Assembly (NCBI RefSeq): GCF_030161095.1
Contig: NZ_BSPP01000007.1
Span: 62,001 to 126,000, forward strand
Length of the DNA: 64,000 nucleotides
From: Cypionkella aquatica
Lineage (GTDB): Bacteria > Pseudomonadota > Alphaproteobacteria > Rhodobacterales > Rhodobacteraceae
Direction: 5' to 3'
Part shown: positions 32,194 to 48,959 of the stretch, piece by piece
Layout: every line of letters starts with the position of its first letter
Numbering within the stretch: position 1 is the stretch's first letter
Position numbers and translations under genes: made by a program
The notes under the pieces: generated by a model
What the model was told of the DNA's origin: nothing
The model's database searches: none
The model's input: only the letters and a program-made list of their open reading frames with translations

Positions 32194-32233
32194 GCCCGCG
32201 TGGTGAAATGGTAGACACATGAGACTTAAAATC
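32194..32233 (+). pseudogene. 5' half of the host tRNA-Leu(UAA), cut in the anticodon loop
   Basis: Begins with the acceptor strand GCCCGCG, then a normal D-arm (GTG-AAATGGTAGA-CAC) and the anticodon arm up to ACTTAAAATC. After that the sequence departs from any tRNA. The matching 3' half is 16.7 kb away at 48904-48959. The base before GAGA is T where G would be needed to pair, which suggests decay since the gene was split. Confidence 0.9.
32224..32233 (+). repeat. attL core of element A
   Basis: ACTTAAAATC, the anticodon-loop core shared by the host tRNA, both element junctions and both element tRNAs. Confidence 0.85.
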
Positions 32234-32323
32234 CTGCCTTCTGGCCTGATAAACGTATTGTTTTCATAGTCTTAAGGCGATACGAAGAACTCTGGGCCTG
32301 ATTTAGACCCAATGCACGTCTTT
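32234..32323. other. Left end of element A
   Basis: The first 58 bases from the core (32224-32281) match the left end of element B (44771-44828) at 45 of 58 positions without gaps. The best block, CATAGTCTTAAGGCGAT, starts 41 bases from the core start in both. It could be an integrase arm site or a promoter/processing signal for the tRNA that follows. Confidence 0.7.
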
Positions 32324-32408
32324 GCGGGCGTGGTGGAACGGTAGACACAAGCGACTTAAAATCGCTAGAGCCAAGCTCGTGCGGGTTCGACTCCCGCCGC
32401 CCGCACCA
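32324..32408 (+). tRNA. tRNA-Leu(UAA), carried by element A
   Basis: Complete class II tRNA of 85 nt: acceptor GCGGGCG/CGCCCGC, D-arm GTG/CAC, anticodon stem AGCGA/TCGCT with loop CTTAAAA (anticodon TAA at 32357-32359), variable arm GAGC-CAA-GCTC, T-arm GCGGG-TTCGACT-CCCGC, discriminator A and encoded CCA. It differs from the host copy outside the loop, so it was brought in, not duplicated. It would replace the interrupted host gene. Confidence 0.95.
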
Positions 32409-32551
32409 GTGATTGTTCAGCTCGTGCTTGCACATCAAGTCTTGCCTTTACGATATGTTGAGAACAATAGTAGAACACAGAAAACGCTGCTGACAAGCCA
32501 GAGGTGGCTAGTTACACAAGCAGAAGTGTTCGGCGTCAGGGGGCCTCCAAT

Positions 32552-33520
32552 ATGTTGCAGTCGATCGAGATGTGTGCGGGTGCTGGTGGTCAGGCTCTTG
32601 GGTTGGAACAAGCTGGCTTCGGTCACCAAGCTCTTGTCGAGATTGACGCTCACTGCTGCAACACCCTCCGGGCAAACCGTCCAAAGTGGAACGTGCTGGA
32701 GCAAGACCTTCAGATATTCAAGGAGCGGGCAAAGGACTTTCATGGGGTGGACTTGGTTGCGGGCGGTCTGCCATGCCCGCCGTTCTCAGTGGCCGGAAAG
32801 CAGCTAGGCGCTCTGGACGAACGCAACCTGTTCCCTGACGCGCTGCAGATAGTGGACGCCATCAAGCCAAAGGCAGTGATGATCGAGAACGTCCGCGGGT
32901 TCCTTGACGCAGTATTCAAAGACTACCGAGAGGGGCTCAAGTCGCAACTCAAGAAGATGGGCTATGTGACTGACTGGCGCCTGCTGAACGCCTCGCACTT
33001 TGGTGTGCCGCAGCTTCGGCCCAGGGTTATAATTGTGGCTGTCCGTGAGGAATTTGCGGATCGGTTCGAATGGCCAGAAGAACAGCACCGAAACCCGCCA
33101 ACAGTTGGCAATGTCTTGCGCGACCTGATGGGCGAAAACGGCTGGCGTGGCCTTAACGCTTGGTGCGAACGGGCGGATGAAATTGCGCCCACCATTGTAG
33201 GTGGCAGCAAGAAACACGGCGGCCCAGACCTTGGCCCGACCAGAGCAAGGCGCGCTTGGGAGACGCTTGGAGTGAATGGCAAGACCATTGCCGAGGAAGC
33301 ACCAGACCGGGACTATGTGGGGATGCCCCGGTTAACAGTGCAGATGGTCGCCCGGCTGCAGGGCTTTCCCGACGACTGGCACATTACCGGCAAGAAGACT
33401 GCAGCCTACCGGCAGGTGGGCAACGCGTTTCCGCCACCGGTTGCCAAGGCTGTAGCAACGAATGTTCGAAAGGCGATCGAAAGCAAGGCCACCCGGCGCC
33501 TCCACCTAATCGCCAGCTGA
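32552..33520 (+). CDS. DNA (cytosine-5)-methyltransferase
   Basis: 322 residues from ATG 32552, behind GGGGG. Motif I EMCAGAGGQALGLEQAGF, motif IV with the catalytic Cys GGLPCPPFS, motif VI ENVRGF, motif VIII QLRPRVIIVA and motif X YRQVGNAFPPPVA are all present; the target-recognition region lies between residues about 190 and 270. It is the modification enzyme of a type II system with the adjacent HNH nuclease, with which it overlaps tail to tail by 15 bp. The recognition sequence cannot be told from here. Confidence 0.93.
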   Translation: MLQSIEMCAGAGGQALGLEQAGFGHQALVEIDAHCCNTLRANRPKWNVLEQDLQIFKERAKDFHGVDLVAGGLPCPPFSVAGKQLGALDERNLFPDALQIVDAIKPKAVMIENVRGFLDAVFKDYREGLKSQLKKMGYVTDWRLLNASHFGVPQLRPRVIIVAVREEFADRFEWPEEQHRNPPTVGNVLRDLMGENGWRGLNAWCERADEIAPTIVGGSKKHGGPDLGPTRARRAWETLGVNGKTIAEEAPDRDYVGMPRLTVQMVARLQGFPDDWHITGKKTAAYRQVGNAFPPPVAKAVATNVRKAIESKATRRLHLIAS

Positions 33521-34288
33521 TTTGCCTTTTCGCTTCTCGAAGTCTTTAATCAGCTTCACGTGATCCGCAGGCAGGTCCCGCCAGTTCCGCAAGGTATAAA
33601 AGGACTGGACGCCCTTCCTGTCCCGCTTCTTGGTCACATCGATTTCCAACCCTACAGGCTCATAGCGCAGTTCCCGTAACCGCTTCCGCCAGTCAAGCTG
33701 CTGATCCTTGACGTTGGCAACGAACTCAATGGCATAGGCCGGCACGGGTTCAGGCATGTGGAGGCGGAGAAACTGGGCAATTCGCTCGTGGACCGACTCA
33801 ATGTTGACGACCTTCTTCATCTCGTCGCCGTCAAAGGTCCCGAAGAAGTTGCGCTTGCCCCGATTGCAGGCTTCACAGATGGCCCACAGGTTTTCCAGGG
33901 TAGTGGGCCCACCCCAGCTTTGTGGAATTTTGTGATCGGCCTGGAGCTTGACCCCATCCTCTTTGATCGTCTGCCCGCACATCTGGCAGCGGCCGTGGGC
34001 AAGGTGCATAACCGCAGCCCTTAGCTTTTCGGTCACTTGGCCCGCGTCGGCAGTTGGCGCTTCCCGCTCGGCTCCGAGGACATAGACCGTGGAGCCATCT
34101 TTCTTGATGGCGTCGAGGGTGTAGAGCTTGCGAATGTCTCGCACACGCCGGTTGAAATGCTCCTGTGTTTCGGCAGTGGCGTTCAGCAATTCCCGCATCT
34201 CGGCCATGCTGAGACCCTCGGGATGTTGCCTCAGCAGTTCCAAGGCTTTCTCGGCGACGTGGCCTAGTGTGATCTTCGACTGTGACAT
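33506..34288 (-). CDS. HNH restriction endonuclease
   Basis: 260 residues. The HNH/zinc module is in the middle: CQMCGQTIKEDG, LQADHKIPQSWGG (His of the motif), TTLENLWAICEACNRGKRN. The N-terminal 90 residues look like a winged helix (GLSMAEMRELLN). Convergent with the methyltransferase and overlapping its 3' end, the usual layout of HNH-type restriction-modification pairs. Confidence 0.87.
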   Translation of the reverse strand: MSQSKITLGHVAEKALELLRQHPEGLSMAEMRELLNATAETQEHFNRRVRDIRKLYTLDAIKKDGSTVYVLGAEREAPTADAGQVTEKLRAAVMHLAHGRCQMCGQTIKEDGVKLQADHKIPQSWGGPTTLENLWAICEACNRGKRNFFGTFDGDEMKKVVNIESVHERIAQFLRLHMPEPVPAYAIEFVANVKDQQLDWRKRLRELRYEPVGLEIDVTKKRDRKGVQSFYTLRNWRDLPADHVKLIKDFEKRKGKSAGD

Positions 34289-34478
34289 CAGATCAGTCTT
34301 GTCAGCTGGCTAAACGCAGTCAAGGCCCGCGTTTCAAGAACCAAGAAGTATTCTGGTAGCACCGTGCCGCGAGGGAAAACTTGCTGCTTGCGCTCACTTT
34401 TATGCTTGCCACACAATCGTGGAAGTTGTGAGATCAATCGATCCGAAGCTTCAAAAGTGTCTCAAGCTAGAGTTTCAA

Positions 34479-36374
34479 ATGCAGATAGATAAGTTACAAA
34501 TAAAAAATCTTCGATCAATTGAGAGCATCGAAGTGGGCTTTGATAAAGTTACTGCATTGCTGGGCAGCAATAACGCCGGCAAGTCAACTATCTTGCGAGC
34601 GCTTCAGCTCTTTTTCGAATCTGCCCCAAAGGTTGAAGATGATGACTTTCATAAACGAGCAGCGCCCGAAATTGAAGTTTCCATAACCTTCCGTGATCCA
34701 ACGCCTGCAGAAATTGAGGAGTTCGGCAACGCCGTCATAGACGGACGAATGACGGTCTCGAGAAAATTTCTTAAAGACAAGGGCGATCTACACCTCTCCT
34801 ATAGCGTCATGGCAAAGAGCTATCCAGCTTTCGAAGCCATAAGGCAAGAAACAAGTAAGACGAAGAAACGCTCAGACTTTAACATTATAGCCGATGCAAC
34901 CGAAGGTTTGGATCGTGCCACCAGCGCGGAAGATGCAGACGCAAAGATGGCTGCCTGGGAGCTTGCGAACCCAGATAAATTAGAGTTGATGAGTGTTGGC
35001 GGATTTTTTGGATTTCCAAATGTTGCCAATGGAAAGCTGCGAAAAAAGACATCTGTTCACTTTGTGCCTGCTGTTGCCGATGCCTCCGAGCAAACGTCTG
35101 ACCCACGTCGTAGCCCAATCATCGTTTTGCTAGCTGAAATTGCTAAGCAAATCTACGAGAACAGACAAGAAGTTCAGGATTTTGTAGCACAGGCAAACAC
35201 ACATTTCTCCGAGTTGGTTTCGCCTGCGAGATTTCCAGAACTTGCAAATATAAGTGGTCGGCTAACTGATACAATTCAGAAATACTACCAAGACTCAAAA
35301 CTGTTGGCAGATTGGGAGGTGGATCAAGGGATCAAAGTATCGTTCCCACAGCCTGTCATAAGAATTGAAGACAATGGCTTTCTAAGTGGATTGCAGAACG
35401 TGGGCCATGGTCTTCAGCGGGCAGCACTTTTCTCAGTAATTGAGTTTCTAGCAACTAGCTCCGCCCAACCCGGTGCAGAGAACTTTGCTGAGGCCCAAAG
35501 CGACATTATCCTCTTGGTTGAAGAGCCTGAAATATATCAGCATCCAATTAAGCAACTCGTTATCAACGACGCGTTTCACGTGATATGCCAGAATTTTAGT
35601 GCTCAGACGGGAATACGCTTTCAGATCGTATTTGCAACCCATTCTGAGAAGTTTATTGGAATTAGCAAGTTCCATTCAGCGCGGATACTGAGAAAATATA
35701 CGGAGGATGATCGCAACAGGCACACGGCTTCTTCTGTCAATCTTCGCGAGTGCTCGGAGTATTTTGCAGCGCTCCTGAACAAAGAAGCCATGGCGGACGA
35801 TGCTTTTGAAGCAAAGATGCACATCTTCTCGCGTGAACTTTGCGAAGGTTTCTTTGCTGATAAGGTTATTCTTGTCGAAGGGGTAACTGATAAAGCGATT
35901 CTGGAGGGAGCTTACCGAGCCGCCGGTCGTGATGTGCGTGCTGAAGGAATTTCCATTATCCCAGTAGATGGTAAGAACAAGTTGGATAAGCCATTCTATA
36001 TATTTGGAAAGCTGGGGATACCGACTTTTGCTGTGTTCGATTCGGATGCACGGAGGAATGAGGGAAATAGACGCATACCTTGCAACCACCTACTTCAGAA
36101 GATTGCAAATGTTGATGCTCCAGTGGATTTGCCAAGCGGCTGCTTTGATCGCTTTGCTGCTTTTGAAGGGAATATTGAAGTATATCTAAAGGGAGCGGCG
36201 GGCGGTCTTTGGGAGCAAGAGTTTGTGGCGTTGGCTGCAGCATTTGGCTTGGATGTCGATGATCTTTGCAAAACGCCTGTAGCAATAGCAGCAGTCTGTC
36301 AGCGGTGTCGTGAAGCAGGGAAGGATTTGGGAATGTTTGATGCAATTATTGCCGCGGTAGATCAACTAAGATGA
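34479..36374 (+). CDS. OLD-family ATP-dependent nuclease (AAA ATPase plus Toprim)
   Basis: 631 residues from ATG 34479, chosen because the family starts close to the IKNLRSIESIEV strand; GTG 34419 is a longer alternative. Domain order: ABC/SMC-like ATPase with Walker A LLGSNNAGKST (29-37), Walker B IILLVEEPEIYQHP and the ATHS H-loop, then a Toprim domain with VILVEGVTDKAIL and FDSDAR. OLD proteins act in phage exclusion; GajA of Gabija is related, but no UvrD-like GajB is present. The gene is clearly richer in A+T than its neighbours and uses TTA codons, a sign of transfer. Confidence 0.88.
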   Translation: MQIDKLQIKNLRSIESIEVGFDKVTALLGSNNAGKSTILRALQLFFESAPKVEDDDFHKRAAPEIEVSITFRDPTPAEIEEFGNAVIDGRMTVSRKFLKDKGDLHLSYSVMAKSYPAFEAIRQETSKTKKRSDFNIIADATEGLDRATSAEDADAKMAAWELANPDKLELMSVGGFFGFPNVANGKLRKKTSVHFVPAVADASEQTSDPRRSPIIVLLAEIAKQIYENRQEVQDFVAQANTHFSELVSPARFPELANISGRLTDTIQKYYQDSKLLADWEVDQGIKVSFPQPVIRIEDNGFLSGLQNVGHGLQRAALFSVIEFLATSSAQPGAENFAEAQSDIILLVEEPEIYQHPIKQLVINDAFHVICQNFSAQTGIRFQIVFATHSEKFIGISKFHSARILRKYTEDDRNRHTASSVNLRECSEYFAALLNKEAMADDAFEAKMHIFSRELCEGFFADKVILVEGVTDKAILEGAYRAAGRDVRAEGISIIPVDGKNKLDKPFYIFGKLGIPTFAVFDSDARRNEGNRRIPCNHLLQKIANVDAPVDLPSGCFDRFAAFEGNIEVYLKGAAGGLWEQEFVALAAAFGLDVDDLCKTPVAIAAVCQRCREAGKDLGMFDAIIAAVDQLR

Positions 36375-36471
36375 CAGACAGTCACGCGCTTTCATGGATA
36401 AATGGCAATCGGAACAGGTGCTTGGGTGCTATGGGTAGCCATCAGGCCCGATATGGACGCCTCCGAACAGC

Positions 36472-36493
36472 AAAAAGCCCGCCGAAGCGGGCT
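36472..36493 (-). terminator. Terminator facing leftward transcription of element A
   Basis: AGCCCGC-CGAA-GCGGGCT (36476-36493); on the - strand the hairpin is followed by TTTT. It ends the leftward small-gene transcripts before the OLD gene. Confidence 0.88.
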
Positions 36494-36515
36494 GATTGGC
36501 GGCAATTTGAGGTTG

Positions 36516-36734
36516 TCAGTAGTCCGCGCTCATCTCTCCATGGGCGATGAAGTCAGCCCGCATCTCTTCTAGCGCAGCAACGCCAGTCGCTTCGGCTCGA
36601 CGGGCATAGTCGGCAAAGGCGCCTCGTGGCAGGTGGTTCAGCGTGCGATGGTCTTCCATCAGCAGCGTCTCAATCAGGCCGGCGAACCTTTTGAAGTCCG
36701 CCGACAGCAGGTCAGCAATGGTCTGCTTATACAT
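36516..36734 (-). CDS. Small unknown protein, element A
   Basis: 72 residues from ATG 36734, preceded by GGAGACCCCC. Helical and acidic (MYKQTIADLLSADFKRFAGL, LEEMRADFIAHGE), no membrane segment. No family recognised. Confidence 0.6.
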   Translation of the reverse strand: MYKQTIADLLSADFKRFAGLIETLLMEDHRTLNHLPRGAFADYARRAEATGVAALEEMRADFIAHGEMSADY

Positions 36735-36810
36735 AGGGGGTCTCCGTTGTTGCAGTTTCATCCTGTCCGGAATAGCTCTGCCCGCGAATGGCGAAAACGC
36801 AGATTGCAGG

Positions 36811-36843
36811 AAATAAAAAGGGCGACCAAACTGGCCGCCCTTT
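36811..36843 (-). terminator. Terminator after the conserved gene pair, element A
   Basis: A 12-bp stem (AAAGGGCGACCA / TGGCCGCCCTTT, one G-T wobble) with a 3-base loop, T-rich on the - strand (TTTTTATTT), immediately after the stop at 36848. Confidence 0.88.
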
Positions 36844-36847
36844 CCGA

Positions 36848-37069
36848 TCATTCCGCAGCGAACCTTTGTTGCCGTCTCCACATTGATCGTGGCGCAGGTT
36901 GTTCGCGCATCAATTCTCTGAGACACTGCATGGTCTGCAATTCCTCTTTCAGCATTCCCTCATAGCGGAATTGCTTATGATGAACTCGCAACGCATCAGC
37001 CCGCCTTTTTGCCTTTTCGATTGGTGTCTCTTGCAGCCCCACCAAGTTGAGCAAGAGATATGGTTTCAT
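36848..37069 (-). CDS. Conserved element protein, second gene of the pair (element A)
   Basis: 73 residues, basic and helical. Its N-terminus (MKPYLLLNLVGLQETPIEKA) matches the product of 47174-47467 in element B (MKPLLLLNRVDGPQESTIEK); the C-termini differ. Coupled by an ATGA overlap to the gene before it in both elements. Function unknown. Confidence 0.72.
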   Translation of the reverse strand: MKPYLLLNLVGLQETPIEKAKRRADALRVHHKQFRYEGMLKEELQTMQCLRELMREQPAPRSMWRRQQRFAAE

Positions 37070-37374
37070 TCCGTCACAGCCTTCGCTTTGCGACGGTGGG
37101 GAACGTCCACCCCGTCACGGCGCAGGCGAGCGGCCACGCTGGCAACCGACCTCGCGGACGTGTTGCAGGGTTTGAACTGATCGTGGATCAGCGTGACAAT
37201 CTGGTCGTAGGACATGGTTGCGTCCATCACCAGTTGCGCGATCACTTCACCGATCTTCGGTGCCTTCACTTCGGGTTCAGCGGGCTTGGTCTCGGCCAGG
37301 ATCGTCTCGGCAACTTGATCGGGGTCAGCGCCTGCGAGAACAGCGGACACGGCGTCTTCAAATTTCTTCGGCAT
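37066..37374 (-). CDS. Conserved element protein, first gene of the pair (element A)
   Basis: 102 residues. DAVSAVLAGADPDQVAE at the N-terminus and SVASVAARLRRDGVDVPHRR at the C-terminus are shared with 47464-47796 of element B. The second half (LVMDATMSYDQIVTLI to the C-terminus) looks like a small winged-helix or helix-turn-helix fold and also resembles the C-terminal half of the ribbon-helix-helix protein at 38355. The leader GGAGTGACTGACCC before the ATG is nearly the same in element B. Possibly a DNA-binding regulator. Confidence 0.75.
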   Translation of the reverse strand: MPKKFEDAVSAVLAGADPDQVAETILAETKPAEPEVKAPKIGEVIAQLVMDATMSYDQIVTLIHDQFKPCNTSARSVASVAARLRRDGVDVPHRRKAKAVTE

Positions 37375-37735
37375 GGGTCAGTCACTCCTATTGCCTGGTC
37401 ACCGCGACCAGGATGATAGGATTGTGTCGCGTGGGCTGGGTCTCGAACGCCCATAAAGGGCCGTTTCCCAACGACATTTTGTTTCGGAACCGCTCGGCAG
37501 ACATACCTGAGGCAGACGGTTACCGAGCGCGCTGTCCATCAGGTCGGGGGGCCGGGGGAAGCATCTGAACGACACTGTGCGCCTCGATCGGCGCGCTATC
37601 GGGCCTCCGGGTTGGCCTGAGGTCTTCCATGGTTGTCTATGCCTTTAGACCGGCACGCCTTTCGGGTGCCGGTCTTGGGACAGTTAGTCCTAGGGCGAGC
37701 CGACGCCAGTGCTGCACACCGGCCCGCCCTTTGCG
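37375..37735. other. Gap in element A with a GC-rich hairpin
   Basis: 361 bp. GACCGGCAC and GTGCCGGTC (37648-37656 and 37666-37674) form a 9-bp stem without a T-run; CTGGTC/GACCAG near 37395 is a smaller one. No gene that I can support. Confidence 0.45.
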
Positions 37736-37927
37736 TTAATGTTGAGCTTTTTCCGTCTGCGCCTCCTTTTCCTGTTCCCGTGCTTTCCGCAACGCCTTGT
37801 GGTAGGTGCGGTAGCAATCCGCCGTCCCCTTTTTGACACCAACCTCAATCATGAGCGTGGCGCTTTTCGTTTGCGGGCGATCATCGAGCATCTTGAAACA
37901 CTCGGCCTTCATGCTGTTCACTCGCAT
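37736..37927 (-). CDS. Small basic unknown protein, element A
   Basis: 63 residues, ATG 37927 behind AAGGGG, highly charged (KGTADCYRTYHKALRKAREQ). It overlaps the end of the preceding gene by 10 bp. No family recognised. Confidence 0.55.
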   Translation of the reverse strand: MRVNSMKAECFKMLDDRPQTKSATLMIEVGVKKGTADCYRTYHKALRKAREQEKEAQTEKAQH

Positions 37928-38220
37928 GGGAAAGACCCCTTCTGCCGCAGGATCGAATAGGTTTCCTGATTGATGGTCAGGTTGTCGGCCCGGTCACCAA
38001 ACTGCCGCTCAAGGGCCGCGGGAATGTCCCACTCGGTTTCCTCAAGAATGGCCAAAAGCGTCTTGACCTGATTTTTCTTGAGCCCGGTGAGGCTGCCGAT
38101 CGCTTCGGGGCTAGTGGTGCCCATCGCGATTGCACCAATGGCCGTCTTTTCCATATCGGACAGGTAGTGCCCAGACCACTTGTTGCTGAGCGGGATGGCC
38201 CCGATTGGTTTGACTTGCAT
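37918..38220 (-). CDS. Small unknown protein, element A
   Basis: 100 residues; GTTSPEAIGSLTGLKKNQVKTL reads like a helix-turn-helix, so a DNA-binding role is possible. First gene of a leftward pair; its leader is divergent from the ribbon-helix-helix gene and contains AGGAG. Confidence 0.6.
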   Translation of the reverse strand: MQVKPIGAIPLSNKWSGHYLSDMEKTAIGAIAMGTTSPEAIGSLTGLKKNQVKTLLAILEETEWDIPAALERQFGDRADNLTINQETYSILRQKGSFPCE

Positions 38221-38259
38221 ACTCTCTCCTTCTATTAGGAGTTGTCACCCGCGATCTAT

Positions 38260-38276
38260 CTAGCTCTATTAGCTAG
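38260..38276. promoter_or_regulatory. Palindromic operator candidate in the divergent promoter
   Basis: CTAGCT-CTATT-AGCTAG between the divergent genes at 38220 (-) and 38355 (+). An autoregulated operator for the RHH protein or the HTH-like neighbour is plausible. Confidence 0.5.
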
Positions 38277-38354
38277 TGATTGGGTGCCAAATGACTAGAC
38301 GATGATTCTCATGGATGCAAGTCAAATGATGTGCAGAAGGGTTCTATTTTTCTT

Positions 38355-38684
38355 ATGAAGAAGTTCAGCGTTGCCCTGCCCGATGAGCTTTATGACGCTG
38401 TGACCGAGAGGGCGGCACTCGAAGGCATCAACATCAGCGACGTCGTGCGGGACACTCTAGCGCGGGAGTTCGCCTTCAAGCCGCATCGAACAATTGGTGA
38501 GGTTGCCATGGAAGCCATCAGGGCTGGCGCGACCAACCAGCAAACCTTGGCCCACGTGCACAAGCTCTTTCCCGACAGCAACGCGTCGGCTGCGTCGATC
38601 GCGTGGTATCGGATGACATTACGTAAGGAAGGCGAAGCCGTTCCGACCGATCGGGAGGCGAAAGTTGCGGCGAAGTGGCCCTGA
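38355..38684 (+). CDS. Ribbon-helix-helix DNA-binding protein, element A
   Basis: 109 residues from ATG 38355. The first 45 residues are a typical RHH (KKFSVALPDELYDAVTERAA, then GINISDVVRDTLAREF). The rest (AIRAGATNQQTLAHVHKLFP to GEAVPTDREAK) resembles the C-terminal half of the conserved protein at 37066, suggesting a shared domain. It is the only rightward gene in this half of the element, so it is likely a repressor controlling the divergent promoter. Confidence 0.78.
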   Translation: MKKFSVALPDELYDAVTERAALEGINISDVVRDTLAREFAFKPHRTIGEVAMEAIRAGATNQQTLAHVHKLFPDSNASAASIAWYRMTLRKEGEAVPTDREAKVAAKWP

Positions 38685-39311
38685 AAATAGGTGGCTATCG
38701 AGCCCGGTTCTGACCTGGCGACGGGCTGAATGCGTCAACTCCCTGACCGGGAAGCCTTAATCTTCCATCGTCACCGGACTAATGATCCGTTCGGGCAAAA
38801 GAGTATGGGCGCCAGGAGACCTGGCGCCCACTCTTTACCCGCACTGCGAGTCCGCAACACCGAAACGCCAGACAGCCGGGAAGATGGTCCCGGACGCGGC
38901 GGACCTACCACGCCGCGCCCAGGGTTATCCCGACGAGGCTGGCTTGACACAACCGCGCCGGGAATAGGGTGCCGCCAGGGACATGACCACCTGGCGGCCA
39001 GTGCCAATCCGGGGAGATGAAACCCGACCTGGCACGACGTCGCGGGAAAACTTCAACCTAAACCCACGACGATTTATGCGGACGGGTCATGGACATACCC
39101 GCCCCGGCCACATCCTTACCCGTCCGAAGACACGAGGAGGGCCTAACGCGGAACGAGGACCCGTAAAGACGACGTTCCGCGCGTTCGAATTGATGGAGAC
39201 GGCAGCCCCACGCCACACGAGACTGCCGCCTCCGGGTCCCTCGCCTGCGAACAGGGGAACCTACAGCAACGCCGCTTTACTTGGAGGTGGGCAAGCGCTG
39301 CTGATGGAATT
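38685..39311. other. Non-coding GC-rich hairpin array, element A
   Basis: 627 bp without a credible gene but with at least eight inverted repeats in a row. Arms: 38807-38816/38820-38829 (10 bp, extended by AAAGAG/CTCTTT), 38876-38881/38888-38893, 38895-38901/38911-38917, 38971-38979/38990-38998, 39001-39006/39030-39035, 39079-39087/39118-39126, 39147-39155/39173-39181, 39200-39205/39233-39238 (extended by GGAG/CTCC). The first could end the RHH transcript. The rest suggest a structured RNA, an origin or a packaging/transfer site. Confidence 0.75.
38798..38836 (+). terminator. First hairpin of the array, possible terminator of the RHH gene
   Basis: GGGCGCCAGG-AGA-CCTGGCGCCC with outer AAAGAG/CTCTTT pairs, 115 bp after the RHH stop; short T-run only. 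Confidence 0.55.
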
Positions 39312-39557: not shown

Positions 39558-39569
39558 GCTGGTGGTTCC

Positions 39570-40717: not shown

Positions 40718-41005
40718 CTACTGGTCATAGAATGGCGTTGCGCGCACCCAGGCGAGCAGGTCTGCCCGGTCGGTCTCGCTGATGAACTTGTCACCTGTGA
40801 TGCTGACAATCGCTTCCTCACGGGCGTCCCGGCTGATCCACGGGATTTTGGGTCGCCCTTCGCGCAGTTCGGTCAACAGGCCTTCGTCGGTCGTGATCCA
40901 GCCTTTGGTGACGCGCATCATTGTGGTTCCGGCTTGATGGGCAACGCAGGCGACCCCGCCGGGCAGGACGAAATGGATAGGCGGCAAAGTGGGGGCTACG
41001 GGCAT
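40718..41005 (-). CDS. Small unknown protein, element A
   Basis: 95 residues, ATG 41005, overlapping the end of the upstream gene by 10 bp, with GGAG inside that gene as its ribosome site. Contains a beta-rich start (PIHFVLPGGVACVAHQ) and ends in LLAWVRATPFYDQ. No family recognised. Confidence 0.58.
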   Translation of the reverse strand: MPVAPTLPPIHFVLPGGVACVAHQAGTTMMRVTKGWITTDEGLLTELREGRPKIPWISRDAREEAIVSITGDKFISETDRADLLAWVRATPFYDQ

Positions 41006-41508
41006 TCATCTGTCTCCGGGTTGATAAGGCGGGGGAGTGGGCGCAGGTCGGTAGAAACGTAAGATGCGGCTGAGGCGCTGACGTTTACCGATGTGGTGGA
41101 AACGGGCTTGTCCGCCGAGGCCATCAGCTTTTCGATCAGCTTTGAAAGGATCGTGGGATTGCATCCGACAAGCCGGGGGCCACGAACTGCGTTGAAGTCC
41201 TCGTCAAGCAACGCCGCCCCATCCGGGCCGGTAAGGTATTCCCAGACGATGGTGCCGGTAGCTGCGAGCGATTTTTCCATGACCTCGTGCAGCGCCGTGT
41301 CACGCCGTGCCAGCAGGGCCAGGTTCCAGAGGTCATCGAAGTCCGCAGAACTGCACCGCGCCAGATAAAGGGAAAGAACGTCGCTGCCTGCCGCCTTTGC
41401 TGCCAGCACGGGCGACCGTCCCGCCACTAGCGCCTGGACAAAGGCCATCTGCTGATCCTCCGTCGCCGGGGCCAGTTCGGACAGTTTCATGGGCGCAAGC
41501 TGGTTCAT
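40996..41508 (-). CDS. Possible terminase-small-subunit-like HTH protein, element A
   Basis: About 170 residues (start uncertain: ATG 41508 or 41490, no clear Shine-Dalgarno). The N-terminal AFVQALVAGRSPVLAAKAAG followed by the pattern ..YLARCSSADFDDLWNLAL resembles the helix-turn-helix of phage small terminases, in which a DxxFxxxWxxA stretch follows the recognition helix. The C-terminus is Ser/Thr-rich. A paralogue-like partner lies at 41810-42136. The assignment is pattern-based and tentative. Confidence 0.5.
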   Translation of the reverse strand: MNQLAPMKLSELAPATEDQQMAFVQALVAGRSPVLAAKAAGSDVLSLYLARCSSADFDDLWNLALLARRDTALHEVMEKSLAATGTIVWEYLTGPDGAALLDEDFNAVRGPRLVGCNPTILSKLIEKLMASADKPVSTTSVNVSASAASYVSTDLRPLPRLINPETDECP

Positions 41509-41809
41509 CGTATCGGGCCAATACTGGATTTCGTCAGGCGCTCCCCATAAGCCCAAGATAACAAAGGGCAAAAGGGCACGTTTTTGGGACAAAGGATTAG
41601 ATGTCACTCGATCGCAATGTGGCGCGGTCTTCCGTGACATTACGCCAGCGTTTCCGGACGCAACCCGGCCGGTGCGCTTTGGTCGGTCTGACTGATGCCC
41701 GGATCATCCCCCGGTCAATTACACCGTGCGCACGCGGCATCGATGCACCGAGACGGCAAAGCGCCAGGCATCGCTACCGAAAGCCCGAGCGAGCCGAATA
41801 TCTTCCAAT

Positions 41810-42136: not shown

Positions 42137-42520
42137 TTCGCACCCTCCATTCGATGCGGTCATGGTGTCGGGTCGTTCTGGCGTGGAAAACCATCAATGC
42201 TGATTTGTTATCGCCGTTATCACTGTTATCACTGTTATCGCCGTAATACTTCCACTGTCCCCGGGGCGAAAAGCACCGAAAAACCTAAGTGCTTGATTTT
42301 GTTATGTCGTCGCTGTCTTTGACTTCTCAGCGACAAAGGGGCGACGGTGTAAGTGCTTGTGTTTATTATATTGTCGCTTTGTCGCTTTAGTCGCTATAAT
42401 ATCTATATAATAAGCCAGAAAACACCCCAGCTTCTATTGAGCACCGCAATTGGCAGAGTCTGGAAGTTCGCGCGCGCGCGTGCGAAGCGATCAGTGCGAC
42501 AACTGCGACATGGCGACAAC
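42137..42520. other. AT-rich iteron-like region of element A
   Basis: 384 bp without a gene. It contains four tandem 9-mers (42207-42242), two copies of TAAGTGCTTG (42286-42295 and 42350-42359), clustered GTCGC motifs (three in 42371-42396), an AT-rich stretch (ATATTATATAGAT-type near 42400) and an AAGCGCTT palindrome near 42533. This layout is like a replication origin or a complex promoter. Confidence 0.6.
42207..42242 (+). repeat. Tandem 9-bp repeats (iteron-like)
   Basis: GTTATCGCC, GTTATCACT, GTTATCACT, GTTATCGCC in uninterrupted succession, followed by the partial GTAATACTT. Confidence 0.85.
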
Positions 42521-42895
42521 TTAACAAAAACAAGCGCTTAAGCTACAGCGATCCGGCGACAAGCTCGGCGACACAGCGACAAATATCCGCCACCGGTCGT
42601 AGTTCGCTGATGTGGCGCAAGCTGCCAGGCAATCAAGCCCGGCAGCCAGAGCGTCGGGCAGCAGGTATTCCCGTTCGGTCTCGATCAGCCACGCCCGGAG
42701 GTCTTCCACCCGGTGCATGGTTTTCGTCACCATGATCTTCTTGCCCGAGTAGGTGCGGGTCTTCACGCGACCTTTGAAGAACGGAATGCCCACACCGCGG
42801 GTGCGATATTGGTCGAGAGACTTGGGGGCAATTCCGGTGATTTCGGCCACATCTTCATTCGTGAGGCCGATAAACGATGGCGTCGATTGTTCCAT
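42521..42895 (-). CDS. Excisionase/AlpA-like DNA-binding protein, element A
   Basis: 124 residues from ATG 42895. The first half is a MerR/AlpA-type winged helix: IGLTNEDVAEITGIAPKSLD followed by QYRTRGVGIPFFKG, typical of recombination directionality factors. The longer frame to 42991 runs through a hairpin and is less likely. Close to the integrase, as expected of xis. Confidence 0.65.
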   Translation of the reverse strand: MEQSTPSFIGLTNEDVAEITGIAPKSLDQYRTRGVGIPFFKGRVKTRTYSGKKIMVTKTMHRVEDLRAWLIETEREYLLPDALAAGLDCLAACATSANYDRWRIFVAVSPSLSPDRCSLSACFC

Positions 42896-42997
42896 GACAA
42901 TGCTATCATCGCTACTATGAGCGATCTCCTGAGGGACTGGGATTTTGCACTGTCTGGTAGGGCGGGGAAACGTGTGGGTTTTCCCGCCCATTTTCTT

Positions 42998-43372
42998 TCA
43001 TGCCGACTGTAGCGCGGCCTGTTTGTCGGTTAAACCAACGAACTCGCCCTGTGTCACATTCGACGGCTGCACCATAGCCTGTGCGCCCGTGTCGATCAAG
43101 CCAAGCCGCTGCACGGCCATCTGCACCGCTTCCTCAAGAAAGGGCAGGCGTGACGGTTGGTGATCGGTGATGTGCTGTGCGATGAACTGGAGGTAGATGC
43201 GGCCAAACTTCATCTTGCTCGGCCAACTCTTCCTTGCCGCTTTGGAGGTGAAGCCCCCGACCGGAATGATCGTCGCCATTCTGGCGTCGTCCCATCCCAA
43301 CGCGTGCTGCGCCTCGTCAAAGGTCAGCAACAGCGGTTTCTTCCCCCAAGGCAAAAAGCTAGATTGATCCAT
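42998..43372 (-). CDS. Unknown protein next to the integrase, element A
   Basis: 124 residues from ATG 43372, with AGGAG eight bases upstream; GTG 43381 is too close to the ribosome site. No clear domain (LLLTFDEAQHALGWDDARMA, then KSWPSKMKFGRIYLQFIAQH). A GGGCGGG...CCCGCCC hairpin (42959-42990) follows the stop. Confidence 0.6.
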   Translation of the reverse strand: MDQSSFLPWGKKPLLLTFDEAQHALGWDDARMATIIPVGGFTSKAARKSWPSKMKFGRIYLQFIAQHITDHQPSRLPFLEEAVQMAVQRLGLIDTGAQAMVQPSNVTQGEFVGLTDKQAALQSA

Positions 43373-43472
43373 GCGACGCACTCCTACTGCGTTTGCAACA
43401 AGACTGACCCTCCAAACAGATCAGTTTTCCTCCGGCCATCGGGACTGCAATCCCGGTGGCCGTGCTTGCATC

Positions 43473-44615
43473 TTAGCGCGCGTCATGCCGGCGATTACGC
43501 CAGCGAACGCACCCCTTCGCAGTATTGTCCTGAGGCAACGATGGCTCGCCAAAGATCACGTAATTCCACGTCACACCAGCAGGGCGATGGTTCATCAAGA
43601 TCATCGTCATGCCCACATCGACACCCGCTTCCATCGCGAAGGTGCGAAACGTGTGCCGCATCCCGTGGGGGGCATAGTTGAAGGTGGTGGTGCGGCACAT
43701 CTGCTCTATGTGGCCGGACTTTGCCGTAGGGGATGCGAAGACATAGTGCGAGCAGAGGGGGCGGGTCAGTTCCCGAACTTCTTCCAACTCCTGTCGCACA
43801 AACCGGGGCAGAGGCAGCTTGAACGCCTTGGACTCGCCACCCTTTGGTGACGGCAGGGTCAGCACGCCATCGGCATCGATGTGTTCCCATTTCATCGACC
43901 TGGCGTCACCACTCCGAAGGCCGCACAGCAACATCACAATCCAGCACACCCGCCGAACGCGATCCTCCATCCCGTCCAGCGACCGCCACAGGGCAGGCAT
44001 GTCGTTCGGCGATACGGCCCAATTTCTCGCCACCTCTTTGTTCAGCTTCACGGCGCGTGTGACGACATTCGGGGGCAGGTCAAAGGTGCGGGCAGTGTCG
44101 TTCAGTAGCAGCTTGAGCACCCGCATTGCCCCGTTCGCACCATAGGCCCCGCTATTCTTCGTCAGGCGCTCGTGAAGGGCTCGGGCAGTTTCCCGGTCGA
44201 TCGCATCCATGCGGGTGTTTTTCAGCTTCTTCAACGAGCCGTCCACCTTGTCGCGATACCACTGCTTCGTCCGAGGCGAGAGGTCAGGGCGACTGTCGAG
44301 ATACCTTTCCAGCGCTTGCGCCAGGGTCGGAACTTCAGTCTTTACCCTGCGCGGGTCTTCACCCCTGCTGAGCTTCAAGCGGATTTCCTGAGCTTCGGCG
44401 CGTGCTGTCTTTAGCGACACCTGGTCAGTTCGCCCGAGCGTCACGGTGACGTAGCACCCGCCGGGGTTGTTGATCTTTCCCATCAGTTTGAACGACGACG
44501 CCTTCTTGCCCACGACGACACGAAGGCCGGGGACGGTTGCATCATACAGGATTGCACCCTGCGGATGCTCTTCGTGGAGTTTCGCCACAAGGGCTTGGGT
44601 TAGGCTGGTGGTCAT
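43473..44615 (-). CDS. int: Tyrosine-type integrase of element A (intact)
   Basis: 380 residues from ATG 44615, behind GGAGGATACA. Order: N-terminal arm-binding domain of the P4-integrase type (QGAILYDATVPGLRVVVGKK), core-binding SAM-like domain (about 110-200) and catalytic domain with Arg in LLCGLRSGDARSMKW, HxxR in GMRHTFRTFA, His in LMNHRPAGVTWN and the nucleophile Tyr in NYVIFGE. It reads away from the right core, about 155 bp from it. Its relative at 47905 in element B is truncated. It should act on the anticodon-loop core. Confidence 0.92.
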   Translation of the reverse strand: MTTSLTQALVAKLHEEHPQGAILYDATVPGLRVVVGKKASSFKLMGKINNPGGCYVTVTLGRTDQVSLKTARAEAQEIRLKLSRGEDPRRVKTEVPTLAQALERYLDSRPDLSPRTKQWYRDKVDGSLKKLKNTRMDAIDRETARALHERLTKNSGAYGANGAMRVLKLLLNDTARTFDLPPNVVTRAVKLNKEVARNWAVSPNDMPALWRSLDGMEDRVRRVCWIVMLLCGLRSGDARSMKWEHIDADGVLTLPSPKGGESKAFKLPLPRFVRQELEEVRELTRPLCSHYVFASPTAKSGHIEQMCRTTTFNYAPHGMRHTFRTFAMEAGVDVGMTMILMNHRPAGVTWNYVIFGEPSLPQDNTAKGCVRWRNRRHDAR

Positions 44616-44915
44616 TGTATCCTCCATATTCAGGCCCTGGTCTGGACCCTCTGACAGACCCAACGGTGACGAATGCACCGGAAGGCTATGGAAGGGATTA
44701 TGACGTGATTTCAAGCACTTCCGAACCATGAAACAGGCTGGGGAAGGCTACAGAAAACTCAGACTGAAATACTTAAAATCCTGCTTTCTGTTGTGAAAAG
44801 AGTAACGATTACATAGCCTTAAGGCGATTTTGTTCGGCGACAGCCATACATAAGCCATCTATGCCCGATTGATTGGCCTGAAATGGCTTGATAAAGGGCA
44901 GTTTCGGAGCCGTCA
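44616..44915. other. Junction of elements A and B
   Basis: 300 bp holding the integrase leader, the right end of A, the shared core at 44771-44780 and the left end of B. The right ends of A and B share a CACTTC...CCATGAAA block shortly before their cores (around 44717 and 48850). Confidence 0.65.
44771..44780 (+). repeat. Core between elements A and B
   Basis: ACTTAAAATC serving as the right junction of A and left junction of B. Confidence 0.85.
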
Positions 44916-44997
44916 CCCCACGTGGAGAAATTGGTAAACTCAGGAGACTTAAAATCTCCCGCCGTAAGGCTTCCCGGTTCGAGGCCGGGCGTGGGGA
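44916..44997 (+). tRNA. tRNA-Leu(UAA), carried by element B
   Basis: Complete class II tRNA: acceptor CCCCACG/CGTGGGG, D-arm GAG/CTC, anticodon stem GGAGA/TCTCC with loop CTTAAAA (anticodon TAA at 44950-44952), variable arm GCC-GTAA-GGC, T-arm CCCGG-TTCGAGG-CCGGG, discriminator A. No CCA is encoded (CGG follows), unlike the element A copy, so it depends on CCA addition. Position 1 is C. It is now 12.5 kb from the host tRNA promoter. Confidence 0.88.
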
Positions 44998-45048
44998 CGG
45001 TTCCAACTACATCTTGACCAACGAGGCAGACGCCTTTCTATTGGTGGG

Positions 45049-46116
45049 ATGGATCAACTTGACCTTCTCATAGCCGACTCATTTGTAGCAGAACTTGCAG
45101 GGCGACATGGCCTTCCAGTTACAGGGCTGTTGCCTCGATACATGGAACGCAAAACCAAGGCGGCCACTCGTGGTGCCAAGGCACGGCGATCGCTTGGCAA
45201 CGTCTATGCCTTGCTTGTGCTTGCCGAGGACTTTGTTGCGGGCAAACCCGATGGGTCCAGGTTCACTGACCTGCTAGCGCGCATGAAGGCGCTACCCTTT
45301 GGCTCAAAGCTGCAAAATCACCCACTCGACAACCGATTGAACGACGAATTTGGTCGCCAAATGGAAGTGACTGGCGATCTGCTACCAGTTCAAGCCACGC
45401 TAGTTGGCGGTCAGAAGGCGAGGCGGATTTCACCCGCTTTGCTCGCCCATGATGGTGCGAGCCCTGCGGCTGCTGCACAGTTTATTGTTGATGTGGTTGA
45501 GCAGTATATCCACCTCATCACCGAAAAGCAGTCGTCCTACCTGGACGAAATTGATGAGCTTACGACCGCAGCGGAGCTAACCGAATTTCTGGAGACAGCA
45601 TTTGAGCCAAACTCAGATGCAAGGCTTTTTGAGGTCGTCTCGTATATCCTGCTAGCTGAGCACTATCGGGGGCGCTCTGTCTGGGTTGGCGACTCGGCTG
45701 CAACCGTTCGAGAGACACCCATCCGCCTGTTCCGAAGCGGGCGCACTAACGCCAATGATGGTGGCATTGATTTCGTGATGCAGCCACTCGGGCGGTTCTT
45801 CCAGGTGACCGAAACTCTGGATTTCGCCAAGTATTTCCTCGACTTCGAGAAGGTCAATCGGTTTCCAATCAGCTTCGTCGTCAAGGTTGAAACTAAGCCA
45901 GACGCTGCAATCAAGATCATCAAGGCTGATGCCTTGCGCTCAGGGCGTTACACCGAGGCCCAGGTTGACAGCTACATGACCCTGTTTGAAGAGGTTTTCA
46001 CCCTACCCATTCTGCGCGAGGTTCTGGCAGCACTGCCAGGTGACGCGGCATCAGTGGGCAGGATGAAGAGCGAATTGGCCCTGCAATTCCGACTTGAATA
46101 CGGGCTGCTAGATTAG
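45049..46116 (+). CDS. Putative type II restriction endonuclease, element B
   Basis: 355 residues with no family I can name. It lies tail to tail with a methyltransferase gene, stop codons overlapping, as restriction partners often do. A possible PD-(D/E)xK core is NDGGIDFVMQPLGRFFQVTE (Asp, then about ten residues to a beta-strand), but the usual Lys would be Thr in QVT. If it is the partner of the YhdJ-like methyltransferase, the target might be ATGCAT. Starts with ATG just after the tRNA. Confidence 0.6.
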   Translation: MDQLDLLIADSFVAELAGRHGLPVTGLLPRYMERKTKAATRGAKARRSLGNVYALLVLAEDFVAGKPDGSRFTDLLARMKALPFGSKLQNHPLDNRLNDEFGRQMEVTGDLLPVQATLVGGQKARRISPALLAHDGASPAAAAQFIVDVVEQYIHLITEKQSSYLDEIDELTTAAELTEFLETAFEPNSDARLFEVVSYILLAEHYRGRSVWVGDSAATVRETPIRLFRSGRTNANDGGIDFVMQPLGRFFQVTETLDFAKYFLDFEKVNRFPISFVVKVETKPDAAIKIIKADALRSGRYTEAQVDSYMTLFEEVFTLPILREVLAALPGDAASVGRMKSELALQFRLEYGLLD

Positions 46117-46994
46117 AACAAGGTGGCTTGGGCAACTTCGGGCGCCGTGATCCCTTCGCCAGTTCTGTCCTTCTTTGACTTGTTCTTGGTTTTGCGGGCT
46201 TTGACTTTGGCCAGTTCATCCTCTGAATAGGTGGAGGGAATACCAACCCGACGAAGGCCTATCTTCACATATTCTTCGTTGATTTCGATGCCAATCGATT
46301 TGCGGCCAAGTCGTGCAGCAACCGCAGATGTGGTGAACGTCCCTGAGAATGGATCAAGAACAACGTCACCCGCATTGCTTGAGGCCTTTATCACACGTTC
46401 CAGCAAGGCCTCGGGTTTTTGCGAGGGATGATCTTCATATTCGTCCATCTTGAAGCGAACGCGGGCAAAGTCCCAGACGTTGCCAGGCACTTTTTCCGTT
46501 GAGTATGGCTGTGGCGGGTCTTTCCGATAATCGATCAGCGCCCGTTTTGCCCCTGTCTTTGCCTCCACCAGTATCTCATCTGCATTGAACGTGTAGGCCT
46601 TCGGGTCAGCAACCATATGCAAAATGGGCTCCCACATTGATCCGAAGTATCTTCGGGCCTGGACGCCCGAACTGTCATATGTCCAGACAATCCGAGAAAG
46701 AATGTGGGCGCGTGCTCGGCAGAACAGGTCAAAGTGGGGCATCATCTGAGTTGAAGTCATCAGGTAAAAGGTCCCCGTAGGACTCAGCACCCTCAGGCAC
46801 TCTGCAATCCAAGCGCGGCTCCACTCCAAATATTCGTCCTCTTCCTTGAAGTCTTTCAGCCCGTTGAAGTCCTTCCCAATATTGTAGGGTGGGTCGGCAA
46901 ACACCAAGTTCACCGAGCCAGTTTCGACGGTTGCAAGGGCTTCGAGCACGTCCCCGTGCAGTATCTTGTGGTTCTCGGCTTCAAGTAAACGCAT
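46113..46994 (-). CDS. Adenine-specific DNA methyltransferase, YhdJ-like
   Basis: 293 residues of the beta class: catalytic motif IV VFADPPYNIGKDF near residue 33, and motif I near the C-terminus (LDPFSGTFTTSAVAARLGRK, SIGIEINEEY). It follows E. coli YhdJ almost throughout, for example IVWTYDSSGVQARRYFGSMW, ILVEAKTGAKRALIDYRKDP and EYEDHPSQKPEALLERVI. YhdJ methylates the second A of ATGCAT, so the same specificity is a fair guess. In E. coli YhdJ is an orphan; here it has a possible nuclease partner. Confidence 0.92.
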   Translation of the reverse strand: MRLLEAENHKILHGDVLEALATVETGSVNLVFADPPYNIGKDFNGLKDFKEEDEYLEWSRAWIAECLRVLSPTGTFYLMTSTQMMPHFDLFCRARAHILSRIVWTYDSSGVQARRYFGSMWEPILHMVADPKAYTFNADEILVEAKTGAKRALIDYRKDPPQPYSTEKVPGNVWDFARVRFKMDEYEDHPSQKPEALLERVIKASSNAGDVVLDPFSGTFTTSAVAARLGRKSIGIEINEEYVKIGLRRVGIPSTYSEDELAKVKARKTKNKSKKDRTGEGITAPEVAQATLF

Positions 46995-47118
46995 TGGCAG
47001 TCGTCTCCGGGCTTAGCTGTCTATCGGCTATCTCCTGACACAATATCGAGCGTCTTCAGGGAAAGATATGCCAAGCTCTAGCATACTCGACCGCGATGGA
47101 GTCGAACAGCCCGAGAAC

Positions 47119-47147
47119 AAAAAGAAAAGAGGCCCACGAAGGGCCCC
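47119..47147 (-). terminator. Terminator after the conserved gene pair, element B
   Basis: GGCCC-ACGAA-GGGCC hairpin (47131-47145), T-rich on the - strand (TCTTTTCTTTTT), 27 bp after the stop at 47174. It corresponds in place to 36811-36843 of element A. Confidence 0.8.
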
Positions 47148-47173
47148 TTGTTTGTCGCTTCCAAAACCGCTGG

Positions 47174-47467
47174 TCACTCAGCCACGAAAACCTTGCGAAC
47201 CCGTGCCTCTACCTGTCTAGCACGCCACCTGCGCAACGCCCGCTGGCCCCACGCAGGCATGTCTCGCAAGTGAAGGCCAAGGTCTTCTGCCATCTGTTCG
47301 CGGGTCACCCCGCGCTCCATCGCCTGTTCGACCTGACCAACTGTGTCTTGGCCCGTTTGCCGCAACCGTTTACAAAACGAGGTGAGGGCACGTGCCCTCA
47401 GCCTTGCTTTTTCGATGGTGCTCTCCTGCGGTCCGTCCACCCTGTTCAGCAGGAGAAGTGGCTTCAT
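47174..47467 (-). CDS. Conserved element protein, second gene of the pair (element B)
   Basis: 97 residues, basic; counterpart of 36848-37069 of A by its N-terminus, with a longer C-terminus (QMAEDLGLHLRDMPAWGQRA) that could be another helix-turn-helix. ATGA overlap with the preceding gene, exactly as in A. Confidence 0.72.
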   Translation of the reverse strand: MKPLLLLNRVDGPQESTIEKARLRARALTSFCKRLRQTGQDTVGQVEQAMERGVTREQMAEDLGLHLRDMPAWGQRALRRWRARQVEARVRKVFVAE

Positions 47468-47796
47468 GCAGTCTCACCTTTCTGCTGACGGCGAAGCGGG
47501 ACCTCCACACCTTCTTTGCGAAGTCGGGCAGCAACCGAGGCGACCGAACGGCGGGAGGTCTGAGCATCCGTGAACTTCCCCCGGATGATTTGGACGATGG
47601 CGTCATAGGACAGTGTGGCGTCCATGACCAACTCGGTCACGGCAGAACCAATCGTCATGCGAGGTTCTTTCACTTCGGCGGGCTTTTGCACCTCAGCTGA
47701 TGCGGCCACTTCTGCCAATACCTTGTCAGCAACTTGGTCGGGGTCTTGGCCGTGCAGAACAGCGGACACAGCGTCCGTGAAGGTCTTCTTACTCAT
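47464..47796 (-). CDS. Conserved element protein, first gene of the pair (element B)
   Basis: 110 residues, counterpart of 37066-37374 (DAVSAVLHGQDPDQVADKVL; SVASVAARLRKEGVEVPLRR). The leader GGAGATGACTGACC is nearly the same as in A. Function unknown, possibly DNA binding. Confidence 0.75.
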   Translation of the reverse strand: MSKKTFTDAVSAVLHGQDPDQVADKVLAEVAASAEVQKPAEVKEPRMTIGSAVTELVMDATLSYDAIVQIIRGKFTDAQTSRRSVASVAARLRKEGVEVPLRRQQKGETA

Positions 47797-47904
47797 GGTC
47801 AGTCATCTCCTAAAAAGGTCCAGCGCGCAGCGCGATGAACAATCTCAGGTTGTCGCGCTGGTGGGGATAAACGAGCCCCTTAAACTGCGGGTGCTGATGA
47901 CAAA

Positions 47905-48747
47905 TCACTTCAGAGTTGCGGGGCAATTGCTTTCGGTAAGGGTCGACGAGCAAGCACCAGGCGCACGTGGTCCGAAAGCTCTGACGGCTGCGACACAAAG
48001 CGAGGGGAGTGCTTCCCACCTTATCGCCCGAGCGTTGCCGGAGCGAAGACCAGTTGTCAGCATCAAAAGCCAGCAAGCAGCCCGCACCCTATCTTCCATT
48101 GCATCAAGTTCCCGCCACAACTTTGGCAAGTCATCCCCCGAGATTGCCCACTGGCGAGGGTGCTCTTTGTTCAGGCGGACAGCACGGGAGATGGGGTTGG
48201 GCGGTAGGTCGAGTGTGCGGGCAGCATCGTTGTGCAGGAGCTTCAAAACACGGGCAACATGATTGGCAGCAGATGGGCCATTCTTCTTTGTCACACGTTC
48301 ATGCAGGCGACGAACGGTGTCACGATCCATCTTATCCATGGGCAGCTTGGCAAGGTCCTTCCACACGGGTTTGAGATGAGTGCGGTAGCTGCGAAGCGTC
48401 GTGGGTTGCAGGTCATTTTTCCGGGTCTCTTCATACCTGGACAACACCTCTTCAAGCGTTGGCATCTTGCTTTTGGGCGTTCTTGGGTCTTCTCCACGAG
48501 CAAGCGCTTGGCGCAACTCCACCGAACGTGACCTAGCGGTGGTGAGGGACATTTCATCAGTACGCCCCACGATGATGGACACGTAGCGACCTGTTCCATC
48601 ATTTACCCGCCCCACATGCTTGAACGAGCAACTGGTCTTGCCCACCACGAGACGTAGCCCTGCAACCTCTGAGTCATAGAGTTGGGTCCCAGGGGTGTGG
48701 TCTTCCATTGCCCTTCGAACCAGGGCTTGCGTCAACTTCTCTGGCAT
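47905..48747 (-). pseudogene. Truncated tyrosine integrase of element B
   Basis: 280 residues from ATG 48747 (AGGAAGATGAT upstream). The N-terminal and core-binding domains match the intact integrase of A (QLYDSEVAGLRLVVGK, TARTLDLPPNPISRAVRLNK-like regions), and the first catalytic Arg is there (MLTTGLRSGNARAIRWE). At about residue 245 (near 48012) the match stops; HxxR and the Tyr nucleophile are missing, replaced by 35 unrelated residues. The 210 bp from there to 47797 have no recognisable origin. Confidence 0.85.
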
Positions 48748-48903
48748 ATCATCTTCCTGTCTATCAAAGCCATGTGTCAGGCCATTTCTGAGCCATGGCG
48801 TCACATGGTTCAGGAAGGGCAGACAGGAAAATAGTGCGCTAGATCAATCACTTCGTAAGCCATGAAATGGCCCCACGTGATTGCACATGGCGAAGGTCGA
48901 ACA

Positions 48904-48913
48904 ACTTAAAATC
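48904..48913 (+). repeat. attR core of element B
   Basis: ACTTAAAATC; to its left the sequence (GAACA) is element, to its right tRNA. Confidence 0.85.
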
Positions 48914-48959
48914 TCCCGGCCGTATGGCCGTGCCGGTTCGAGTCCGGCCGCGGGCACCA
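48904..48959 (+). pseudogene. 3' half of the host tRNA-Leu(UAA)
   Basis: From the anticodon loop on: TCTCC stem, variable arm GGCC-GTAT-GGCC, T-arm GCCGG-TTCGAGT-CCGGC, acceptor strand CGCGGGC, A and CCA. The acceptor pairs perfectly with GCCCGCG at 32194-32200. Without a 5' half next to it, it cannot form a tRNA. Confidence 0.9.

Follow-up and report, generated by a model that had tools for sequence, protein, structure and literature searches.

Two tandem integrase elements split the host tRNA-Leu(UAA) gene of Cypionkella aquatica and are proposed to replace it with their own tRNA genes

Introduction

What becomes of a cell when mobile DNA cuts one of its tRNA genes through the anticodon loop and leaves both pieces in place? 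The question is raised by a 64,000-nucleotide stretch of Cypionkella aquatica (Alphaproteobacteria, Rhodobacteraceae; contig NZ_BSPP01000007.1, positions 62,001 to 126,000 of the forward strand), hereafter the window, in which the host gene for tRNA-Leu(UAA) lies in two halves separated by 16.7 kb. A preliminary description, made from the letters of the window, had read this interval as one island and the halves as useless fragments. Here we propose, with considerable confidence, that two elements of the same integrase family, standing in tandem, split the gene, and that their own tRNA genes replace it. The proposal is built, at the level of sequence, on the split itself, on empty sites in relatives, on spare tRNAs inside the elements, on the lack of any other detectable copy, and on recurrence of the arrangement across genera.

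Results

The host gene is split and not rebuilt

The 5′ half of the host tRNA-Leu(UAA) (32194..32233, plus strand) ends with, and the 3′ half (48904..48959, plus strand) begins with, the same 10-bp core, ACTTAAAATC, which comprises the anticodon loop plus its closing pairs and is common to the element and the host gene; the former half forms the left junction of an element A and the latter the right junction of an element B. Joined with the core counted once, the halves are called by ARAGORN as an 86-nt tRNA-Leu(UAA) with an acceptor stem of 7/7 pairs, which bears out the preliminary claim that they are one gene with a perfect acceptor. The claim of a split in the anticodon loop without rebuilding stands as well, as ARAGORN calls a tRNA in neither fragment taken singly. 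The left junction has no tRNA fold, so the locus departs from the classical island, in which the attachment site of the element (attP) restores the target gene. In the 4.04-Mb assembly the core occurs exactly five times, every time at this locus, and the reversed control pattern occurs once.

The uninterrupted 86-nt gene is present in two genomes of the same genus (G398 and G403), flanked by scoB-scoA and putR-putA, as the preliminary description had expected of relatives lacking the island. That description had also taken the unpaired T at position 27 of the 5′ half as a sign that selection was lost after the split. This was wrong, and decay at this base was rejected, because the same CATGAG...CTCCC stem with its unpaired T27 is present in the intact gene of G398 and likewise in G397, G404 and G407. 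The window 3′ half is 100% identical to the G397 gene over 58 nt, and the window halves appear free of decay.

At the same site, G400 and G396 (L113:1874-16900 and L114:1700-6400) have an intact tRNA-Leu(UAA) by scoA and, at a distance of 14.9 and 4.9 kb, respectively, a 3′-half match by putR, with metabolic-looking open reading frames (ORFs) in between; no obvious integrase was seen among the ORFs of at least 150 aa in these intervals, which were viewed without a domain search.

Each of two tandem elements carries a whole tRNA-Leu(UAA)

Element A (12,547 bp, 32224-44770) and, to its right, element B (4,133 bp, 44771-48903) make up the interval. A third core lies at the A/B junction (44771..44780, plus strand) and opens a 58-nt stretch with 79% identity to the left end. 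Because of this third core and the presence of a second integrase, the single 16.7-kb island of the preliminary description was rejected. The order in both elements from left to right is core, spacer, intact tRNA-Leu(UAA), cargo, minus-strand tyrosine integrase and next core. ARAGORN finds these two intact genes and no other tRNA in the window, namely tA of element A (32324..32408, plus strand, CCA encoded, Rfam 60.4 bits) and tB of element B (44916..44998, plus strand, no CCA encoded); the preliminary description, sound as to the split and the missing rebuild, was incomplete in overlooking both.

The spacer of A (32234..32323, plus strand, 90 bp) is alignable with the spacers of relatives and contains the repeat-like GGGCCTGATTTAGACCC (32294-32310), a putative arm site, and the spacer of B (44781..44915, plus strand) is 135 bp long. 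IntA, the tyrosine integrase of A (43473..44729, minus strand, 418 aa), has Phage_integrase and Arm-DNA-bind_3 domains. Element B is probably unable to move by itself, because its truncated tyrosine integrase, IntB (47905..48804, minus strand), matches only residues 24-284 of IntA, and the remaining frames of 47400-48820 give no meaningful match to the rest. It is probable that B arrived first and that A then entered the left junction of B.

The spare genes are the only copies detected

Another intact host tRNA-Leu(UAA), named in the preliminary description as the contrary case, was not found in the assembly by the core search, Rfam typing or a search with tA. Rfam lists 42 tRNAs in the assembly (99.91% complete), with tRNA-Leu(UAA) occurring once, as tA. 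As a query, tA gave one full-length match per genome, which is the spare, in all eight genomes with the layout described below; everything else that matched was a known half or a short stretch, and tB is too diverged to match. Pattern searches with the core and with the core plus T-arm agree with this result, and copies as strongly divergent as tB, or lying in assembly gaps, could escape these searches. Since no other intact copy is detectable, the cell now seems dependent on the tRNA of the invader.

In genome G247 a single tRNA-Leu(UAA) was found, an 83-nt gene (L069:1470-1552), to which tB is 91% identical over 103 bp. Both seem to be kept as tRNAs, because four of their seven differences form two compensatory stem pairs and the other three are loop bases. 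The G247 gene lies by scoA with no element visible and putR on a different contig, and the take-over may be complete there, this tB-like gene being the only copy found. By its fold tB is a full cloverleaf despite having no Rfam report; its G247 relative scores 54 bits, and tA 60.

The layout recurs in other genomes

The replacement layout is found in eight genomes, the window's included (G000, G524, G266, G494, G594, G573, G583 and G342), of which G524 has the same coordinates and sequence as Pseudorhodobacter ferrugineus (G395). Two cores 105-135 bp apart occur in 7/390 order-level genomes, namely the first seven of these (reversed control, 0 among the matches listed), and G342 has the same layout with a core variant of one base. 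The second core lies inside an ARAGORN tRNA-Leu(UAA) in all eight. A phylum-level sample yielded the double core in the source genome only (1/398). Spacers of the layout genomes align at 57-94% identity, that of element B being more distant (46-53%). Repeats resembling arm-type sites, with a period of 11 bp (for example AGGCCCGAAATAGGCCC), are present in five of nine spacers; the spacer of B has a different 11-bp repeat, and the same test found none in the spacers of window A, P. ferrugineus and G494. The spacer presumably holds integrase arm sites and a promoter.

Relatives of IntA at E up to 1e-40 were found in 7/394 family genomes, with the replacement layout in G000, G266 and G342. A scan of a genome collection added a Gemmobacter metagenome-assembled genome (MAG; 97%) and P. 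ferrugineus (88%), both showing the core and then the host tRNA-Leu 3′ half; the integrase of the latter gives a piecemeal alignment and may be broken. The small G058 element (L078:440-3912), whose integrase is 56% identical to IntA, sits classically in tRNA-Asn: one of its ends has the intact gene and the opposite end a 3′ half of identical sequence. For the G332 integrase no integration site was found. The G266 element encodes a primase and a protein like the terminase small subunit (TerS; 9.5e-10), and a satellite-like nature of the elements is possible. Two further integrases, of G361 and G382 (L079:18322-19500 and L080:1-870, with about 50% identity to IntA), are immediately adjacent to a GTA_TIM-domain gene that looks cut, as if related elements targeted a gene of the gene-transfer agent (GTA).

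Spare and host alleles mostly do not fit as halves

For the seven pairs having both host halves, the identity of spare to host is 0.74 in window A, 0.96 in G266, 0.73 in P. ferrugineus, 0.77 in G494, 0.74 in G594, 0.83 in G573 and 0.76 in G583. The P. ferrugineus spare is 0.99 identical to the window host tRNA, tA is 0.96 identical to the spare of G494, another genus, and G594, G573 and G342 share one and the same spare sequence. Relatedness of the integrase does not simply predict the spare allele, as the P. ferrugineus integrase is 88% identical to IntA and its spare 75% to tA.

The classical repair product, a host 5′ half joined to the 3′ half of the spare, would form 5/7 acceptor pairs in 6/8 host/element pairs and, in G494, only 2/5 anticodon-stem pairs. 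With mispairing defined as at most 5/7 acceptor or at most 3/5 anticodon-stem pairs, this product is mispaired in seven of the eight, while true host or spare tRNAs have 7/7 acceptor and 4-5/5 anticodon-stem pairs, except for the mismatched ends of G573. Half-replacement would thus usually mispair, and this suggests why a whole tRNA is carried: these hosts share the anticodon loop but differ in their stems.

Relics, layers and IMG/VR contigs

Two elements have been reduced while the tRNA was kept. That of G494 consists of the tRNA and an N-terminal remnant of the integrase between matching host halves, its right core being mutated, and that of G583, 2.6 kb long, retains the tRNA and an integrase match of 27 residues. 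A nested history is suggested for G573, whose 5′ half is decayed and whose 3′ half at the right end equals that of the spare itself, the two ends differing in allele type. G594 shows a decayed 5′ half and spacer, then an element-type 5′ half and spacer, and then the intact tRNA; this second, element-type 5′ half indicates that the next element can split a spare tRNA in its turn. On another contig of G594 lies a right end comprising a 3′ half and an integrase of 58% identity. One genome has three layers of take-over.

In IMG/VR, 35 double-core stretches were found, in which ARAGORN places a tRNA at the second core only in 6, tRNA-Leu at both cores in 5, a tRNA at the first core in 7 (2 also with tRNA-Arg) and none in 17. 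L150 and L151, of the second-core-only group, have a 5′ half followed by the intact gene, and L123/L156 (one contig), L136 and L141 have an attP-like core without a 5′ half followed by the intact gene. Integrases lie near L123, L136 and L141, that of L123 being 24% identical to IntA over 276 residues. These cases hint at independent origins of the layout. No IntA relative was confirmed in IMG/VR, the search among phages gave no match and that of plasmids two partial matches, and the tB-like tRNA start and the spacer motif gave 0 each in IMG/VR. The stretch L123:4112-11880 (core at 5560) brings together an integrase, the core with an intact tRNA-Leu(UAA), a prohead protease, a capsid protein and a primase; two copies of the core-tRNA unit, separated by about 9 kb, hint at a repeat of satellite size. 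L138, L145, L153 and L155 may be mirror-image arrangements, as an intact tRNA-Leu(UAA) surrounds their first core but not their second.

Cargo of the elements

Element A carries a C5 cytosine methylase (32504..33520, plus strand), an HNH nuclease (33506..34288, minus strand), an OLD-family ATPase/TOPRIM protein (34419..36374, plus strand) and a protein with a weak TerS-like match (40996..41640, minus strand; 1.4e-4). Element B carries a type II restriction enzyme (45049..46116, plus strand; PADLOC) and an N6/N4 DNA methylase (46113..46994, minus strand). Apart from the weak TerS-like match, no virion genes were recognized among the searched ORFs (Pfam; PHROGs on 10 ORFs of A), the small ORFs of B lying outside these searches; the ORFs searched do not compose a temperate phage such as defines tRNA-dependent lysogeny.

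Discussion

Based on these comparisons, we propose that attP shares only the 10-bp core with the host gene and that the integrase would recombine there, cutting the gene without rebuilding it, while the cell would survive because every element brings a complete tRNA-Leu(UAA) beside its left attachment arm. The whole tRNA would free the element from matching the 5′ half of each host, and the spare gene could in turn become the docking site for the next element. We infer that the spares are expressed and charged and that the host gene is essential. With moderate confidence, we further propose a ratchet, in which elements repeatedly and permanently displace tRNA-Leu(UAA) by a foreign allele and each spare docks the next element; once the halves have decayed, loss of the tRNA would be lethal, and the spare would act as a toxin-free addiction module that outlives its element.

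Several observations weigh against this proposal. The promoter scan of the spacer before tA found no site, and raising the Rfam threshold to E = 10 did not recover tB. Neither tRNA-Tyr nor tRNA-Ile appears among the 42 tRNAs listed by Rfam, and tB is also missing there, so that this list is incomplete. The Gemmobacter MAG, which may itself be incomplete, shows the right end only and no spare tRNA, and G266, alone, could be repaired classically. Finally, UUA accounts for 2 of the 2132 codons in five flanking ORFs, and with UUA so rare, the essentiality of tRNA-Leu(UAA) is not certain.

The intact tRNAs might instead be ordinary cargo of mobile elements, supplying codons or protecting against tRNA-cutting defences, with the match to the split isoacceptor being incidental. 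Phages often bring tRNAs for such ends, a matter also discussed in PMC10865867. However, tA and tB are both of the very isoacceptor that is cut and both adjoin the left core, which holds likewise in 8/8 layout genomes; moreover, no other intact tRNA-Leu(UAA) is seen in these genomes, and the window has no further tRNA, so that incidental cargo is a very unlikely explanation. It is more doubtful still that the intact genes are the host's own, the elements having inserted into an extra copy or fragment. That host-like tRNAs adjoin the fragments, and that the G266 spare is 96% identical to its host halves, would fit such a history, but at the empty sites one gene alone stands where the window has its halves, tA is 74% identical to the host halves but 96% to a spare from another genus, and the spacer preceding the spare is common to elements of different hosts.

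The window halves, being undecayed, still make a complete tRNA when joined, and one might suppose that they act as a split tRNA, brought together in trans, and that the elements are otherwise neutral. We consider this scarcely credible, as intact genes are present and, in G573, the 5′ half is decayed and the ends are of different allele types; to our knowledge, no bacterial tRNA halves are joined in trans. Replacement of the split gene by the tRNAs of the two elements is thus the reading that we retain, and the comparison with known systems is made on this basis.

Phage satellites (phage-inducible chromosomal island (PICI)-like or P4-like) are small and combine an integrase with a primase and/or a terminase small subunit, without a full virion set. 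The G266 element resembles them in its primase and TerS-like protein; element A has only the weak TerS-like match and differs in that no primase was found among its ORFs searched.

Classical tRNA-gene (tDNA) islands restore their target gene, the lost part of the tRNA being provided by attP (Islander, PMC4383910). The tyrosine integrase, the anticodon subsite and the target fragment at the far end are shared with the present elements, whereas here the target is not restored.

By analogy, the present case would work like the tRNA-dependent lysogeny of actinobacteriophages, in which the core is about 10 bp, the tRNA is not rebuilt and the phage tRNA is needed (Guerrero-Bustamante and Hatfull, 2024, PMC10865867). 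Both have a tyrosine integrase by the attachment site (IntA; IntB is truncated), an approximately 10-bp core in a tRNA and a tRNA on the element, and in both classical tRNA-rebuilding integrases are found among the relatives. However, the actinobacteriophage system concerns temperate phages of Actinobacteria and includes experiments, while ours concerns islands known from their sequence, which have restriction-modification cargo, no recognized virion genes, tRNA-Leu(UAA) as the target and a spare 90-135 bp from the core, and which also occur in tandem, layered and relic states. Because no phage was recognized, we do not file the case as lysogeny.

A closer taxonomic parallel is provided by two Lo5R7ANS-like prophages of Sinorhizobium meliloti (2024), which inactivate tRNA-Leu(UAG) and bring a replacement that is 80.6% identical to the host gene and 97.6% to that of Octadecabacter (PMC11476347). 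The likeness lies in the Alphaproteobacteria, the central integration into tRNA-Leu and a replacing tRNA resembling genes of other taxa; the differences are that these are prophages, in two strains, at tRNA-Leu(UAG), and that layered or relic states are absent from the available text of PMC11476347.

Literature searches, with most subscription journals outside their coverage, retrieved no such tRNA-Leu(UAA) island in Rhodobacteraceae. As far as these searches show, what is new is the carriage by islands with restriction-modification cargo, the occurrence in tandem, in layers and as relics, and the argument from mismatched alleles. That argument offers a simple reason for carrying a whole tRNA, as the anticodon loop is common to the hosts and their stems are too different. 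For annotation, a split tRNA and an "extra" tRNA can be parts of one event. In conclusion, a mechanism described in phages would here be extended to islands bearing anti-phage genes, and its natural outcome becomes visible as horizontal tRNA gene replacement, layered take-overs, and relics that keep the tRNA but lose the integrase.

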